Assembly (NCBI RefSeq): GCF_009455635.1
Contig: NZ_QPER01000001.1
Span: forward strand, 3,410,001-3,474,000
Source: Paraburkholderia agricolaris
GTDB taxonomy: Bacteria > Pseudomonadota > Gammaproteobacteria > Burkholderiales > Burkholderiaceae
Direction: 5' to 3'
DNA: 64,000 nt
A program made the position numbers and the translations under genes. Within the stretch, counting starts at the first letter, position 1. The number at the start of each line of letters is the position of its first letter. The notes under the pieces are model-generated. The model searched no databases. It saw nothing but the letters and a program-made list of their open reading frames with translations, and was not told the DNA's origin. Of this stretch, positions 32,719-38,236 are shown one piece after another.

Positions 32719-33143
32719 GCTCCCTGGAAACCAAAGAACTCGAGTTCGCCCGCCAGGTGCGGCGCGCGCTCGACGAAAACGCCGCCAGCATTCCGGCCGC
32801 CACCGTCGACCGGCTCGCCGTGGCGCGCCGCGCCGCACTTGCCCGTAAGAAGCCCGAAACCGTGAGCGCGCCGGTCTTCGTGCCCGCCTTCGCCGGTGCC
32901 GGCATGCCCGCCGGCATGCCGCAAGTCGAGATGCCGCAGCGCCGCCGTTCACCGCTGCGCCGTTTTGCGCTCGCGTGGCCGCTCGTCGCGCTGGTCGTCA
33001 GTCTCGTGGCTATTGCCTACTGGGAAGACCAGCAACGCACGGCCGAACTCGCCGATATCGATGCCGCCATGCTAAGCGACGACCTGCCGCTCAATGCCTA
33101 TCTCGATCACGGTTTCAACGCGTACCTATCACGCGCCCACTGA
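32715..33143 (+). CDS. DUF3619-family protein, single membrane segment
   Basis: This 142-residue protein has an N-terminal ~75 residues that are hydrophilic and helical (LEFARQVRRALDENAASIP), then one membrane helix at about residues 80-101 (LAWPLVALVVSLVAIAYW) and a short C-terminal tail ending LDHGFNAYLSRAH. The ATG overlaps the sigma-factor stop by four bases. Layout and position resemble an anti-sigma factor, but no anti-sigma motif (for example the HXXXCXXC zinc motif) is present. The function is inferred only from context. Confidence 0.75.
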   Translation: MSSLETKELEFARQVRRALDENAASIPAATVDRLAVARRAALARKKPETVSAPVFVPAFAGAGMPAGMPQVEMPQRRRSPLRRFALAWPLVALVVSLVAIAYWEDQQRTAELADIDAAMLSDDLPLNAYLDHGFNAYLSRAH

Positions 33144-33159
33144 GCGGGAGATTCTTCGG

Positions 33160-33921
33160 GTGAGTTACAAGCGCGGCTTGGCCGTTGTTTTCGGATGTGC
33201 GATCGCGGCCCTGGTGTCGTTCGCCGCGACGTATCCGCGCTTTTATCCGAGCCCGTCGTCGCCCACCAGCGCGCCTGCCGCAAACGGCAACGCGACCGCC
33301 AAGGCGCCCGCACCCACCCTCGCCGTCGAACTGCCTGGCCTGCCCGGCAGCAAGAGCCCAATGGCATGGTCCCGTCTGAGTGCGGCCGACCACGTCGCGC
33401 TCGCACCGTTCGCCGGCCAATGGGATTCCTTCAGCGAAGAACGCAAGCGAAAATGGATCAAGATCGCTTCGCGTTACCCGAAGTTGTCGCCTGATGCACA
33501 AAAACGCCTGCATGACCGAATGACCGAATGGGTGCGTATGACCCCCGATCAGCGGCGCGTTGCACGCGAAAACTACCAGGTGTCGAAAGAATTGCCGCGC
33601 GAAACCCGTCAGAACGCCTGGAAGGCTTATCAGCAATTGCCGGAAGAGCAGAAGGAGCGGCTCGCGGCGAGCGAGCGCAAGCGGCGGCCGAGCGTAGTGA
33701 GCGCGCCGCCGTCCGGCAAGACCGAGATCAAGGGCCTGGATCGCCTCGTCAATGCCCGCGAGCACGAGGCGAGCGGCGCCGCAGCGGCGAGTGCCGCGGC
33801 TGCCGCCGCGCTGCCGAGCCCGGCCACCACGCCGGCGATTCCGGCTGCGGGCAGCTTCGTGCCCGCCATCCCGGTGCCGGTTTCGCCGTCCGAGGCGCCG
33901 TCGATCTTCAACGGCTCCTGA
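33160..33921 (+). CDS. DUF3106-family protein
   Basis: This 253-residue protein starts with GTG at 33160, with GGGAG upstream. A hydrophobic N-terminal segment (LAVVFGCAIAALVSFAATY) acts as a signal or anchor. The central part (about 70-170) is rich in Trp, Arg and Lys with repeated motifs such as WDSFSEERKRKWIKIASRYPKLSPDAQKRLHDRM (residues ~90-125, given in parts) typical of DUF3106. The C-terminal ~60 residues are Ala/Pro-rich. It is probably exported and co-transcribed with the sigma factor. Its function is not known. Confidence 0.75.
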   Translation: MSYKRGLAVVFGCAIAALVSFAATYPRFYPSPSSPTSAPAANGNATAKAPAPTLAVELPGLPGSKSPMAWSRLSAADHVALAPFAGQWDSFSEERKRKWIKIASRYPKLSPDAQKRLHDRMTEWVRMTPDQRRVARENYQVSKELPRETRQNAWKAYQQLPEEQKERLAASERKRRPSVVSAPPSGKTEIKGLDRLVNAREHEASGAAAASAAAAAALPSPATTPAIPAAGSFVPAIPVPVSPSEAPSIFNGS

Positions 33922-33934
33922 GCGGAGCCCGACC

Positions 33935-34456
33935 GTGTCCCAGCCGCTCGCCACCTCGACACTGCCCGCCGCTTCGTCCGGCAACCCGCCCACGGTTCGC
34001 CGGCGCCTGGCCACGCTGCTCTACGAAGCCGTGATCCTGTTCGGCGTCGTGTTCATTGCGGGTTATCTGTTCAGTACCTTGACGCAACAGCGCAACGGTC
34101 TCACCCATCACAATCTGCTCGCTGCCTGGATCGGCCTCGTAGTCGGCCTGTATTTCGTCTGGTTCTGGACCCACAGCGGCCAGACGCTGCCGATGAAAAC
34201 GTGGCACTTGCGCGTTGTCGGCGCTAACGGCGCGCCGCTATCCACCGGCCGCGCGATCGCTCGTTACGTGCTGGCGTGGCTGTGGTTTTTGCCGCCCCTC
34301 GCACTGCACCCGTTGCTGGGCCTCACCGTGCCGCAGACCCTGCTGATCGCCGCGCTCTGGTTCGTACTGTGGGCCGCCACCGGCCGCTTAGATCCGCAGC
34401 GTCAATTCCTGCACGACCGCCTCGCCGGCACCCGCGTCATTAGCGTCGCAAACTGA
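33935..34456 (+). CDS. RDD-family membrane protein
   Basis: This 173-residue protein starts at GTG 33935 with GGAG nearby. It holds three or four hydrophobic helices in the RDD layout, with an arginine near helix 1 (RRRLATLLYEAVIL), the conserved HSGQTLPMKTWHLRVV loop and the C-terminal QFLHDRLAGTRVI. The family is of poorly known function; some members are linked to ion transport. It closes the sigma-factor operon. Confidence 0.8.
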   Translation: MSQPLATSTLPAASSGNPPTVRRRLATLLYEAVILFGVVFIAGYLFSTLTQQRNGLTHHNLLAAWIGLVVGLYFVWFWTHSGQTLPMKTWHLRVVGANGAPLSTGRAIARYVLAWLWFLPPLALHPLLGLTVPQTLLIAALWFVLWAATGRLDPQRQFLHDRLAGTRVISVAN

Positions 34457-34582
34457 CCACGCTGCCGCACCCGCGGTACGCGTTTGCTTTACCGGACTTG
34501 CCGGCCGGCATCGCCCTCCTCCGAGCACCGCCGCTCCGCCGCCGTCTCCTTCTCCCGACACAGTAATAAGAACTTCTCGTGA

Positions 34583-34600
34583 CTGTCACGGCGCGGTCAC
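34583..34600 (+). promoter_or_regulatory. PHO-box-like direct repeat (CTGTCAC-N4-CGGTCAC)
   Basis: Two 7-bp half sites with an 11-bp period match the PhoB consensus CTGTCAT-N4-CTGTCAT: the first fits fully if the last base may be C or T, and the second has one further mismatch (G for T at position 2). It ends 44 bp upstream of the phosphoesterase start, a normal distance for a PhoB-activated promoter. The -10 region (near 34611-34618) is weak, as expected for an activated promoter. Confidence 0.6.
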
Positions 34601-34644
34601 GCGCGACTGGCGCAATACGGGCACCGCAACTCGACGCGTGAGCC

Positions 34645-35586
34645 ATGGACCCCAAAACGTCCGCGACTTCCCTGTTCCGCCAGACCGGCCCGAGCGTCGA
34701 CCCTGTCGCGTTCCGCCCGGAACCCAACCCCAGTCACGGACGACCGCTGCCTGTGCCATCGCTGCCCCTCGACGCGCAAGCCGGCCATCAAGACGACGAA
34801 CACGGCGAGCCGCATCGCTATCGCACCATCTGGCTGTCCGACATCCATCTCGGCTCGAGCGGTTGCCAGGCGCCGTATCTGCTGGACTTCCTGCGGCACA
34901 ACGAGTCGGAATACCTGTACCTGGTGGGCGACATCATCGACGGCTGGCAGTTGAAAAAAGGCTGGTACTGGCCGCAGGCGCACAACGACGTCGTACAGAA
35001 AATCCTGCGCAAAGCGCGCAAAGGCACCCAGGTCATCTACGTGCCAGGCAATCACGACGAAGCCGCGCGTCAGTTCTGCGACCTCGCGTTCGGCGACATC
35101 CACGTGCGCGGCGAAGCATTCCACACGACGCTCGCCGGCAAACGCCTCTGGATCGTGCACGGCGATCTGTTCGACGGCGTGATCCAGCACGCCAAATGGC
35201 TCGCCTATCTCGGCGACACGCTCTACACGATGATCCTGATCCTGAACCGCTGGTTCAACCGGATCCGCAGCCGGCTCGGCTTCCCGTACTGGTCGCTGTC
35301 GCAATACCTGAAACATCAGGTGAAGAACGCGGTGAATTTCATCTCGTCATTCGAGCGCGTGATGACCGACGAAGCACGCCGCCGCGGTTGCGACGGGGTG
35401 GTGTGCGGACATATTCACAAAGCCGAAATCCGCGAAATCGACGGTGTGCTGTATTGCAACGACGGCGATTGGGTCGAGAGCCTGTCGGCACTCGTCGAGA
35501 CGTACGAAGGCGAACTCAAGGTGATCTACTGGACTGTGATGCGCGCCCCGGAAGTCGGCGTGCAAAAAGCCCGGGCGACCGCGTAG
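34645..35586 (+). CDS. Metallophosphoesterase, COG2908 (LpxH/PlcP-like)
   Basis: This 313-residue calcineurin-type phosphoesterase has all the dinuclear metal motifs: Asp66 and His68 (SDIHLG), Asp96 (GDIIDGW), Asn136 and His137 (GNHDE), His172 (HGD) and His256/His258 (GHIHKAE). The first ~55 residues are a proline-rich extension. Automated names for this group are often UDP-2,3-diacylglucosamine diphosphatase. The neighbouring GT4 glycosyltransferase, the dgkA gene and the PHO-box-like repeat fit the phospholipase PlcP better. Activity is inferred. Confidence 0.8.
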   Translation: MDPKTSATSLFRQTGPSVDPVAFRPEPNPSHGRPLPVPSLPLDAQAGHQDDEHGEPHRYRTIWLSDIHLGSSGCQAPYLLDFLRHNESEYLYLVGDIIDGWQLKKGWYWPQAHNDVVQKILRKARKGTQVIYVPGNHDEAARQFCDLAFGDIHVRGEAFHTTLAGKRLWIVHGDLFDGVIQHAKWLAYLGDTLYTMILILNRWFNRIRSRLGFPYWSLSQYLKHQVKNAVNFISSFERVMTDEARRRGCDGVVCGHIHKAEIREIDGVLYCNDGDWVESLSALVETYEGELKVIYWTVMRAPEVGVQKARATA

Positions 35587-35616
35587 TCCCTCTCCACTTC
35601 TATTGGGCCGAAACCG

Positions 35617-36648
35617 ATGAAGATCATGATCGTCACCGATGCATGGGAACCGCAGGTCAATGGCGTCGTGCGTACGCTGAAAAACACCACGCGCGAGCTC
35701 ACCGCACTCGGCCACCGCGTCGACTTGCTGACACCGCTCGAATTCAAGACGATTCCGTGCCCGACCTATCCTGAGATTCGCCTGTCCCTGCTGCCGCGCC
35801 GCAAGCTCCATCAGCGCATTGACGAATTCGCGCCCGACGCGCTGCACATCGCCACCGAAGGCCCGCTCGGCATGGCCGCACGCGCCTACGCGATCAAACA
35901 CAAGCTGCCGTTCACGACGGCCTATCACACGCGCTTTCCCGAATATGTGCAGGCGCGTTTCGGCATTCCGCTCGGGGTGACCTACAAGTTTCTGCACTGG
36001 TTCCACAAGGCGTCGCTGGCCGTGATGGCGCCCACGCCGGTAGTCAAGGCCGATCTCGAAAAATTTGGCTTCACCAACGTGGTGCTATGGACCCGCGGCG
36101 TCGACCTCGACATTTTTCACCAGATGGACTCGAAGGTGCTCAACACCGCGCGGCCGATCTTTCTGTATGTGGGACGGGTAGCGGTCGAGAAGAACGTCGA
36201 GGCGTTTCTCAAGCTCGATCTGCCCGGTTCGAAGTGGGTCGCGGGTGAAGGCCCCGCACTCGCCGAGCTGAAATCGCGCTATCCGCAGGCGAACTACCTG
36301 GGCGTCCTGACGCAAGCCGAGTTGGCCAAGGTCTACGCCGCCGCCGACGTCTTCGTGTTCCCGAGCCGCACCGATACCTTCGGGCTCGTGCTGCTTGAAG
36401 CGCTGGCTTGCGGCACGCCGGTCGCGGCCTATCCGGTGACCGGCCCGATCGATGTGCTCGGTGACGGCGGCGCGGGCGCCATGCACGAAGACTTGCGCGA
36501 AGCCTGCCTCGAAGCATTGAAGATCGAGCGCAGCCATGCGCGTGCGTGGGCCGAACGTTTCTCGTGGGCCGCGGCGTCAGAGCAGTTCGCGGCTCATCTG
36601 AAGCCGCTGCCGCGCACGTCATATAGCGAGGAAAGCGCCGCCGCATGA
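35617..36648 (+). CDS. GT4-family glycosyltransferase (possible diacylglycerol glycosyltransferase)
   Basis: This 343-residue GT-B retaining glycosyltransferase starts MKIMIVTDAWEPQVNGVVRTL. The N-terminal acceptor domain includes HIATEGPLGMAARAYA and FTTAYHTRFPEYVQ; the C-terminal nucleotide-sugar domain includes LYVGRVAVEKNVEAFL and the E-X7-E-like motif FPSRTDTFGLVLLEALACGTPV. It lacks membrane helices and is probably peripheral. It starts 30 bp after the phosphoesterase and overlaps dgkA by four bases. Family members transfer mannose or hexuronic acid to lipids; here diacylglycerol is a plausible acceptor. Confidence 0.8.
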   Translation: MKIMIVTDAWEPQVNGVVRTLKNTTRELTALGHRVDLLTPLEFKTIPCPTYPEIRLSLLPRRKLHQRIDEFAPDALHIATEGPLGMAARAYAIKHKLPFTTAYHTRFPEYVQARFGIPLGVTYKFLHWFHKASLAVMAPTPVVKADLEKFGFTNVVLWTRGVDLDIFHQMDSKVLNTARPIFLYVGRVAVEKNVEAFLKLDLPGSKWVAGEGPALAELKSRYPQANYLGVLTQAELAKVYAAADVFVFPSRTDTFGLVLLEALACGTPVAAYPVTGPIDVLGDGGAGAMHEDLREACLEALKIERSHARAWAERFSWAAASEQFAAHLKPLPRTSYSEESAAA

Positions 36649-37310
36649 AGCGGCGCGCCGAGCCGCTTATGCCAACCCGACACTCCAACGCAGCACGCAC
36701 GTCGAACGGCGCGTTGCGCGCTGTCAAAAACGATACCGGCGCCGCCAGCGTCGAGCCGTTCGAAGACGTGAGCGAGCACGCCGCGCCGAATCATGCCCAA
36801 CACGCGAACGGTTTTCGCGGCATGAACGGCGCGGGTCCCGAGGGCTCAGAGCAGCTCGATAACGAGCCTCACCACGAGCCGCTCAGTCCCGACGATCCGT
36901 TCGCCCCGCTCCCCTTCAATCCGTACAAGGGCAATCGCGGCCTGACCCGCGCGTGGCACGCGATGAAAAATTCGCTGGCCGGGTTCCGCGTGGCGATCCG
37001 CGAGGAAAGCGCGTTTCGCCAGGAGCTCACGCTCGCTGCGATCCTGATTCCGTGCGGCGTGCTGGTGCCGGTCGATCCGGTTTCGCGCGTGTTGCTGCTC
37101 GGCTCGGTGCTCCTGGTGCTGATCGTCGAGTTGCTGAATTCGAGCGTCGAGGCTGCCATCGACCGGATTTCACTCGAGCGCCACGAGTTATCGCGCCGCG
37201 CCAAGGATCTCGGCAGCGCGGCGGTGATGGTCGCGCTCGGCATGTGTCTGATGACATGGGGGCTGATCGTCGGGCCGCTGATCGTGCACTGGATCAAAGC
37301 GTGGCTATGA
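36645..37310 (+). CDS. dgkA: Diacylglycerol kinase with N-terminal extension
   Basis: This small membrane kinase phosphorylates diacylglycerol to phosphatidic acid (221 residues). The catalytic membrane core lies at residues ~100-221: three hydrophobic helices with the DgkA signatures AIREESAFRQELTLAAI and ELLNSSVEAAIDRISLERHELSRRAKDLGSAAVM (given as family blocks). The first ~95 residues are a hydrophilic, disordered-looking extension not found in the ~122-residue E. coli enzyme. Internal ATGs at codons 9 and 60 are alternatives. The ATG overlaps the glycosyltransferase stop. Confidence 0.9.
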   Translation: MKRRAEPLMPTRHSNAARTSNGALRAVKNDTGAASVEPFEDVSEHAAPNHAQHANGFRGMNGAGPEGSEQLDNEPHHEPLSPDDPFAPLPFNPYKGNRGLTRAWHAMKNSLAGFRVAIREESAFRQELTLAAILIPCGVLVPVDPVSRVLLLGSVLLVLIVELLNSSVEAAIDRISLERHELSRRAKDLGSAAVMVALGMCLMTWGLIVGPLIVHWIKAWL

Positions 37311-37364
37311 GGGTGACGGCAGCCCCATCCGCCGCCCCAAAGAATGAAAACCCTGAGTATCCGC

Positions 37365-37391
37365 TTGGTATTAGAACGGTCGGTTTATAAT
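37365..37391 (+). promoter_or_regulatory. Promoter of the TetR gene with an overlapping inverted repeat
   Basis: A perfect -10 TATAAT is at 37386-37391. TTGGTA and the offset GCTTGG are candidate -35 sequences. GTCGG and CCGAC (about 37379-37400) form an inverted repeat with 12 bp between the arms that covers the -10, so TetR binding here would repress its own promoter. It lies 120 bp upstream of the TetR start. Confidence 0.5.
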
Positions 37392-37510
37392 CGTCCGACA
37401 GCCCCACGGAAAATCGCTGGGGCGCTCAATATACCAACCGCGTCCGGGTGGATCACGCTAGAGCGGCAAGCCGCCACGCGCCCAGCCCGGCGTAACCAGG
37501 GCCGGACGAC

Positions 37511-38236
37511 ATGGAAGCCAAACCTCCCCGCCGCACCCGCGAACGGATCCTCGAACTGTCGTTGAAACTGTTCAACGAAATCGGCGAGCCGAACGTCACG
37601 ACCACGACGATCGCCGAGGAAATGGAAATCAGTCCAGGCAACCTGTACTACCACTTCCGCAACAAAGACGACATCATCAACAGCATCTTCAGCCAGTTCG
37701 AGCAGGAGATCGAAAAGCGTCTGCGCTTTCCCGACGACCACCGCGCCACGATCGACGAGATGTGGTCGTATCTGCAGTACATGGTCGATTTCACCTGGCG
37801 CTATCGTTTCCTGTATCGTGATCTGAACGATCTGCTGGCGCGCAACCGTACGCTCGAAACGCATTTCAAGCAGATCATCAGCCACAAGGTGCGCTTCGCG
37901 AGCCAGTTCTGCGAGCAACTCGTGGCGGACGGCGAAATGGTCGCCACGCCCGAAGAACTGCAGGTGATCGCCACCAATATCGGCGTGATCGCCACGTACT
38001 GGCTGTCGTATCAGTTCGTGATGAACCCGCGCAAGTACAACGAGCAGGAAACCATTCGCGCCGAACTGCATCAGGTGAGTGTGCAGATCGTGTCGCTGAT
38101 GGCGCCTTATCTGCGTGGCCGCTCGCGGCAGATTTTCGACGATCTCGTGTCAGGCAAGCTGCCCAAGCGCGAGTTCTACGACTACCTGCCGCCGAAAGAA
38201 GGCGCCGCGCCCCGTAACGAACCGAAGGACGTTTGA
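37511..38236 (+). CDS. TetR-family transcriptional regulator
   Basis: This 241-residue regulator has an N-terminal helix-turn-helix (RTRERILELSLKLFNEIGE, then TTTIAEEMEISPGNLYYHFRNKDDI at residues ~30-55). The C-terminal ligand-binding domain is all-helical. An inverted repeat overlapping the gene's own -10 fits autorepression. The LOG-family gene follows within 3 bp, so the two are probably one operon. The inducing ligand cannot be read from sequence. Confidence 0.88.
   Translation: MEAKPPRRTRERILELSLKLFNEIGEPNVTTTTIAEEMEISPGNLYYHFRNKDDIINSIFSQFEQEIEKRLRFPDDHRATIDEMWSYLQYMVDFTWRYRFLYRDLNDLLARNRTLETHFKQIISHKVRFASQFCEQLVADGEMVATPEELQVIATNIGVIATYWLSYQFVMNPRKYNEQETIRAELHQVSVQIVSLMAPYLRGRSRQIFDDLVSGKLPKREFYDYLPPKEGAAPRNEPKDV

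Follow-up and report, generated by a model that had tools for sequence, protein, structure and literature searches.

Membrane lipid remodelling by the phospholipase C PlcP and the glycosyltransferase Agt is already established in bacteria. In Pseudomonas aeruginosa, low phosphate raises the level of PlcP, and the monoglucosyl-diacylglycerol (MGDG) made under these conditions is lost without agt1 or plcP, as reported in a study of plcP, agt1 and agt2 mutants (PMC8528852). The purified Agt1 of this species accepts only UDP-glucose and yields MGDG (PMC8528852). In marine type 2 plcP-agt clusters (PMC4796936) and in type II methanotrophs (PMC9239053), agt lies downstream of plcP, and Pho boxes have been described for the marine clusters (PMC4796936). 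A comparable arrangement was found in Paraburkholderia agricolaris (assembly GCF_009455635.1), in a stretch of 64,000 nucleotides that is referred to here as the window (contig NZ_QPER01000001.1, positions 3,410,001 to 3,474,000, forward strand) and belongs to a genome of 8.72 Mb in two contigs. Three genes, plcP, agt and dgkA, follow a predicted PhoB site (PHO box) and appear to form a lipid-remodelling operon. With a probability of roughly 80%, its core would be a PhoB-PlcP-Agt system.

What is unusual here is the built-in diacylglycerol kinase DgkA, which is common to the close relatives examined. The original prediction had proposed that the PlcP-Agt logic operates at this locus. Once only plausible, that claim is now well supported at the sequence level, through a phylogenetic tree, a PHO-box promoter conserved in close relatives and a family 4 glycosyltransferase (GT4) that lies nearest to Agt1. 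Many of the comparisons below rest on 54 loci, namely the window and 53 others taken as the best matches (best 30 per search) from the genus and the family, a sample skewed to close kin. No paper on a plcP-agt-dgkA operon in betaproteobacteria or Burkholderia relatives was found in a literature search that did not cover the phosphorus-stress proteomics of B. cenocepacia or Zavaleta-Pastor 2010, either of which could change the novelty of the operon.

The phosphoesterase and the glycosyltransferase

The product of the first gene shares the metallophosphoesterase fold with the lipid A enzyme LpxH, and the original prediction had left room for an LpxH-like role with unrelated neighbours. The two belong to the same superfamily, LpxH is the best sequence-profile and fold match among solved structures, and of 120 homologues listed, many carry the name LpxH or UDP-2,3-diacylglucosamine diphosphatase in database sources. 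Against the LpxH model (NCBIfam TIGR01854), however, the protein scored only 31.7 bits, below the cut-off of 190.35, whereas a separate LpxH elsewhere in the same genome scored 228.3 bits. The two proteins are 23% identical across 119 residues. All 13 of the other genomes searched also encode a separate LpxH above the cut-off. In a maximum-likelihood tree of 71 rows, 61 PlcP-type sequences, including those of the window, P. aeruginosa PA7 and Sinorhizobium meliloti, were split from 10 LpxH sequences with support of 100/100. An LpxH role was rejected on the low score, the separate gene, the separate clade and the low identity to the LpxH of the same genome. Chance neighbours were rejected as well and are unlikely, because 53 of the 54 loci keep plcP, agt and dgkA in this order; the remaining locus is cut by a contig end, and in L095, one of the 53 loci other than the window, the GT4 match falls in two pieces, possibly through a frameshift. 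Contradicted on each of these counts, the LpxH alternative is now very improbable. The first gene is placed in the PlcP clade, apart from LpxH, and its product is predicted to have phospholipase C activity. The pathway is easy to miss because the sources label such proteins as LpxH or as UDP-2,3-diacylglucosamine diphosphatases.

The sampling of the tree deserves mention. All 10 LpxH rows came from other genomes, as the motif filter missed 4 of 14 LpxH loci, including that of the window genome. Four duplicate Pseudomonas rows (L187-L190), a partial sequence (L015) and one with an internal stop (L183) were left out. Only 7 of the 53 other genus and family loci are contained in this tree, and the same is true of the GT4 tree described below.

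Other properties of the phosphoesterase agree with its family. The full set of metal ligands claimed for it was borne out, with the eight motif residues D66, H68, D96, N136, H137, H172, H256 and H258 invariant in 28 aligned sequences. It is 53% identical to its PA7 homologue and 52% identical to that of S. meliloti; the nearest organism-named homologue among the matches listed is from Paraburkholderia rhynchosiae (94%). A structure model had a mean pLDDT (predicted local distance difference test) of 74, with residues 7-53 below 50, and a fold search with this model confirmed the superfamily and nothing finer.

The second gene encodes a GT4 that is about 50-51% identical to PA7 Agt1 and 31% identical to PA7 Agt2. 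In a tree of 57 rows, the window sequence grouped with Pseudomonas Agt1 (99/99), and Agt2 formed its own branch (100/99); the same four duplicate rows and L020, in which the match falls in two pieces, were left out. The motif SRTDTxGLVxLEALACG is common to the window GT4 and PA7 Agt1, whereas PA7 Agt2 has SETFGNVVLEA. Among the enzymes compared, the window GT4 is closest to a characterised diacylglycerol glucosyltransferase. It is predicted to be Agt1-like, and its product would be MGDG without glucuronic acid diacylglycerol (GADG), because PA7 Agt2 as a query against the window genome returned the window agt as its best match (121.8 bits), with the next at only 39.9 bits.

One of the nearest described counterparts is the P. 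aeruginosa pair PA3219-PA3218 (plcP-agt1; PMC8528852). In PA7, only one gene matches the window plcP at E up to 0.001. A GT4 gene comes directly after it, and a PHO box upstream of the pair scores 12/14 by the measure given below. This arrangement and the single PlcP match suggest that PA3219-PA3218 is the counterpart of the PA7 pair. Two differences from the window stand out. The sole PF01219 match of PA7, the DgkA family, lies far off (C1:1562515, against plcP at C1:1942218), and PA7 has an Agt2 homologue, of which no clear counterpart was found in the window genome.

The S. meliloti homologue falls inside the branch of window orthologues (97/91, on a long branch). It adjoins an acyl-homoserine-lactone synthase and a LuxR-type regulator. 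We take this gene to be SMc00171 and its neighbours to be sinR and sinI. Unlike the window, this locus showed neither an Agt nor a DgkA match in the 10.8 kb retrieved. An S. meliloti record of 3.7 Mb (L197, CP090106.1), whose title gives it as plasmid pSymB, carries sinI/sinR-like genes together with plcP and may be a mislabelled chromosome.

The PHO box and its promoter

The position of the PHO box, 44 nt before the plcP start codon, the open reading frame (ORF) coordinates and the gap of 30 nt between plcP and agt were all borne out by re-reading of the sequence (Table 1). When 54 upstream regions were aligned, conservation rose abruptly at position -82: the most frequent base of a column made up about 26-76% further upstream, against 89-100% at most positions between -82 and -57. 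All 54 regions share the half-site CTGTCA, the second half-site is mostly CAGTCAC and the spacer is variable. Downstream of the box, TGGCGCAAT begins after 7 bases and the CGCAAT within it after 10. The AAT of this element is invariant in the 54 loci and the preceding GGC nearly so. CGCAAT is presumably a -10-like element, by the spacing rule that we assume for PhoB promoters. A sigma-54 reading of the stretch from TGGCGCAAT to a second GC, made by eye, was rejected, as that GC is conserved at only 89% and 63%.

Table 1. Coordinates of the operon and its promoter elements in the window
Feature	Description	Position	Strand	Basis
plcP	metallophosphoesterase / PlcP-type intracellular phospholipase C (predicted), 313 aa	34645..35586	+	PF12850/PF00149, identities, tree
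agt	GT4 glycosyltransferase, Agt1-like, 343 aa, predicted UDP-glucose:diacylglycerol glucosyltransferase	35617..36648	+	PF13439/PF00534, identities, tree, motif
dgkA	DgkA-type diacylglycerol kinase, N-terminal extension of ~90 aa, start uncertain (36645 or 36669)	36645..37310	+	PF01219
Promoter block	conserved, -82 to -1 relative to plcP start codon	34563..34644	+	alignment of 54 upstream regions
PHO box	CTGTCAC-GGCG-CGGTCAC, predicted PhoB site	34583..34600	+	sequence pattern and conservation
-10-like element	CGCAAT, 10 nt 3' of PHO box	34611..34616	+	conservation in 54 loci

The box was scored against control stretches, with a score of at least 12/14 within 300 bp upstream counted as a hit. 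Among the genus and family loci, hits were found in 51/51 real loci and 0/51 controls (shuffles predict 0.17). The corresponding counts were 10/29 against 0/29 for order-level loci and 7/19 against 0/19 for a distant PlcP group. Two of the 53 genus and family loci and one of the 20 distant loci were left out of this test for want of sufficient upstream sequence. Across the 54 genus and family loci, the best upstream site was exact in 44 and had one mismatch in 10. In the wider family the box is weak in some loci, such as L254 and L255 (10/14). These comparisons indicate that the PHO box exceeds chance.

A genome scan for the box, suggested with the original prediction, was informative in one respect only. 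The pattern CTGTCAYNNNNCNGTCAY has exactly one match without mismatches in the 8.72 Mb, and this is the box before plcP. As a regulon finder the pattern was rejected as uninformative. With up to one mismatch it gave 50 sites against 13 in a reversed control, and 14 of the 50 are one repeated sequence. The boxes before the pstS-like gene lie outside the pattern. Thirty of the 50 sites were viewed as loci, leaving 18 after removal of 12 repeat copies, and those outside the window lie mostly in or before ORFs that did not look Pho-like by eye. In the window alone, a loose pattern with up to two mismatches gave 4 sites against 4.9 expected, which is no enrichment. PhoB itself is encoded in the window genome (349 bits). 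Near its gene, repeats of 12/14 precede a pstS-like gene and repeats of 11/14 precede a gene placed like ppk, both genes being recognised by eye. The repeated sequence, CTGGCACAGCTCGGTCAT, occurs 14 times over both contigs of the genome (G000) and is perhaps part of a mobile repeat.

A constitutive glycolipid, made under all conditions with the PHO box only boosting expression, would fit the presence of a plcP match (E up to 0.001) in 57 of the 58 genomes sampled from the genus and of an operon match in most of the 1.7-2.2 Mb genomes of another genus of the family (g2), a spread that suggests steady usefulness. Yet the promoter, phosphate control included, looks selected, because the half-site CTGTCA is invariant in the 54 loci. 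Likewise, PlcP of P. aeruginosa increases at low phosphate, and it is the MGDG made then that depends on agt1 and plcP (PMC8528852). Constitutive production is accordingly held to be unlikely, and phosphate-induced remodelling is preferred.

The diacylglycerol kinase and its linkage

The third gene product matches PF01219 at 108.2 bits, against a cut-off of 22.3. Residues 97-209 align to DgkA structures, and the conserved motifs of the solved structures are present (afrqe, ivellns and hels-rakdlgsaav). It is the sole PF01219 match in the window genome, a search to which the unrelated YegS/DagK-type kinases did not belong. Its start is less certain than the ATGA overlap with agt had implied. 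The overlap is present here, but over 27 loci this position is ATG 4 times, GTG 19 times and CTG 4 times, and the frame fails to enter DgkA in at least 6 loci. Of the 27, 20 keep an ATG in frame at codon 9, which lies at 36669 here and 20 nt past the GT4 stop. ATGA coupling is thus not supported as a firmly conserved feature. An overlap of agt and dgkA may still occur, because GTG can serve as a translation start. The tail of about 90 residues ahead of the DgkA core (36645-36910) looks like a real coded extension, because in relatives with an open frame conserved islands (for example EPFDDV and PLxPDDPxAPLPFNPYKGNRG) alternate with variable linkers.

Beyond the genus, plcP matches at E up to 0.001 were found in 124/150 family genomes and 106/200 order genomes, both counts including weak or fragmentary matches. 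In 18 further loci across other genera of the family, agt was found in 16 and dgkA in 12, and in the best 29 order-level loci agt was found in 25. A PF01219 match is present somewhere in 24 of 28 genomes searched. One family genome (G332, the source of locus L257) has none anywhere. In another family, genome G067, whose plcP falls in a distant PlcP clade, carries a plcP-agt row with its own dgkA and a further GT4, and has one more dgkA on a separate contig. G111 has a second dgkA roughly 1.5 kb past agt, next to another GT4 and separated from agt by ORFs on the opposite strand. Outside the family, the linkage of plcP and dgkA is seen again in places without being general. A mosaic arrangement was seen at L080, where a distant-clade plcP and a GT4 with 72% identity to that of the window lie side by side in divergent orientation.

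DgkA is known for a role in osmoregulated glucan synthesis, in which it recycles the diacylglycerol left over. It could be that PlcP and Agt remodel lipids under PhoB and that dgkA is merely carried along for this older duty, perhaps with a promoter of its own. The gene is the only PF01219 match in the window genome and is unlinked in many other bacterial families, as such a passenger might be. The proteins absent in a P. putida phoBR mutant are listed as PlcP and OlsAB, and DagK is not named in that list (PMC5082522). The same source nevertheless calls PlcP and DagK of P. putida PHO-dependent, which would bear on DgkA if that DagK is of the same kinase family. Linkage in 53/54 close relatives and the tight row in G067 despite a second, unlinked copy also speak against a passenger. 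A plain sigma-70 scan of 34400-37600 gave no match, which carries little weight in a GC-rich genome. A passenger dgkA is a tentative possibility, somewhat disfavoured. The kinase partner had been put forward as a novelty. Its linkage is real, but its novelty is weakened by the P. putida report.

Proposed pathway and opposing observations

The preferred reading is a phosphate-induced pathway. When phosphate is exhausted, phosphorylated PhoB would bind the conserved repeats and recruit RNA polymerase, as the promoter footprint suggests. PlcP, judged by its clade, would then remove the phosphate-bearing head groups of phospholipids to leave diacylglycerol. Agt, by its grouping with P. aeruginosa Agt1, would add glucose to give MGDG, a phosphate-free membrane lipid. 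DgkA may return surplus diacylglycerol to phosphatidic acid, so that the pool is kept low and some phospholipid is still made. This last step is the least certain and is favoured by only a modest degree; the simplest role for the kinase would be that of a safety valve. More speculatively, and rather doubtfully, the family may run a closed diacylglycerol cycle, with one PhoB promoter for making, glycosylating and re-phosphorylating diacylglycerol and with the DgkA tail tying the kinase to its partners and setting the ratio of glycolipid to phospholipid. Such docking is a guess. If the cycle were real, Burkholderia relatives starved of phosphate would have MGDG as a core membrane lipid that had so far been overlooked.

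Several observations weigh against the pathway as a whole or against the place of DgkA in it. At low phosphate, P. xenovorans LB400 is said to swap phosphatidylethanolamine for ornithine lipids (data not shown there), and the accessible text makes no mention of a glycolipid under these conditions (PMC7814305). DgkA consumes the phosphate of ATP, which is odd in a phosphate-saving scheme, and the omission of DagK from the phoBR-mutant list counts here too. Only 8 of the best 29 order-level loci have dgkA downstream (one has it divergently upstream), and longer flanks for 15 of the 21 without it added none. In six distant-clade genomes searched for DgkA, the gene was near plcP in two (tightly only in G067); it was not near plcP in G150, G020, G088 and G043, two of which have two unlinked copies. 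Within the family, L250 and L257 have plcP but show no agt or dgkA in the stretch fetched. Close kinship among the genus and family loci means that their counts are not independent. At the order level, the box falls below 12/14 in 19/29 loci, and several loci score no better than shuffles; the S. meliloti locus reaches only 11/14 and PA7 agt2 only 10/14. With one mismatch allowed, the pattern fails to single out known Pho genes in the window genome. Both the PlcP tree and the GT4 tree carry a long-branch warning.

The proposed pathway predicts an induced, phosphate-free glucolipid in most of the sampled Paraburkholderia relatives. The accessible low-phosphate lipid work on such relatives describes ornithine lipids only (PMC7814305). 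In the marine clusters, unlike the window, the genomic-context section of the report names no diacylglycerol kinase (PMC4796936). With the sole PF01219 kinase of the genome placed inside the operon, the window offers a compact system for studying the control of diacylglycerol while phospholipids are dismantled.

Directly upstream of the promoter, on the same strand, lie an RDD-family membrane protein gene and an unassigned ORF (33094-34456). The RDD gene adjoins plcP in 50 of the 54 loci, the window included.

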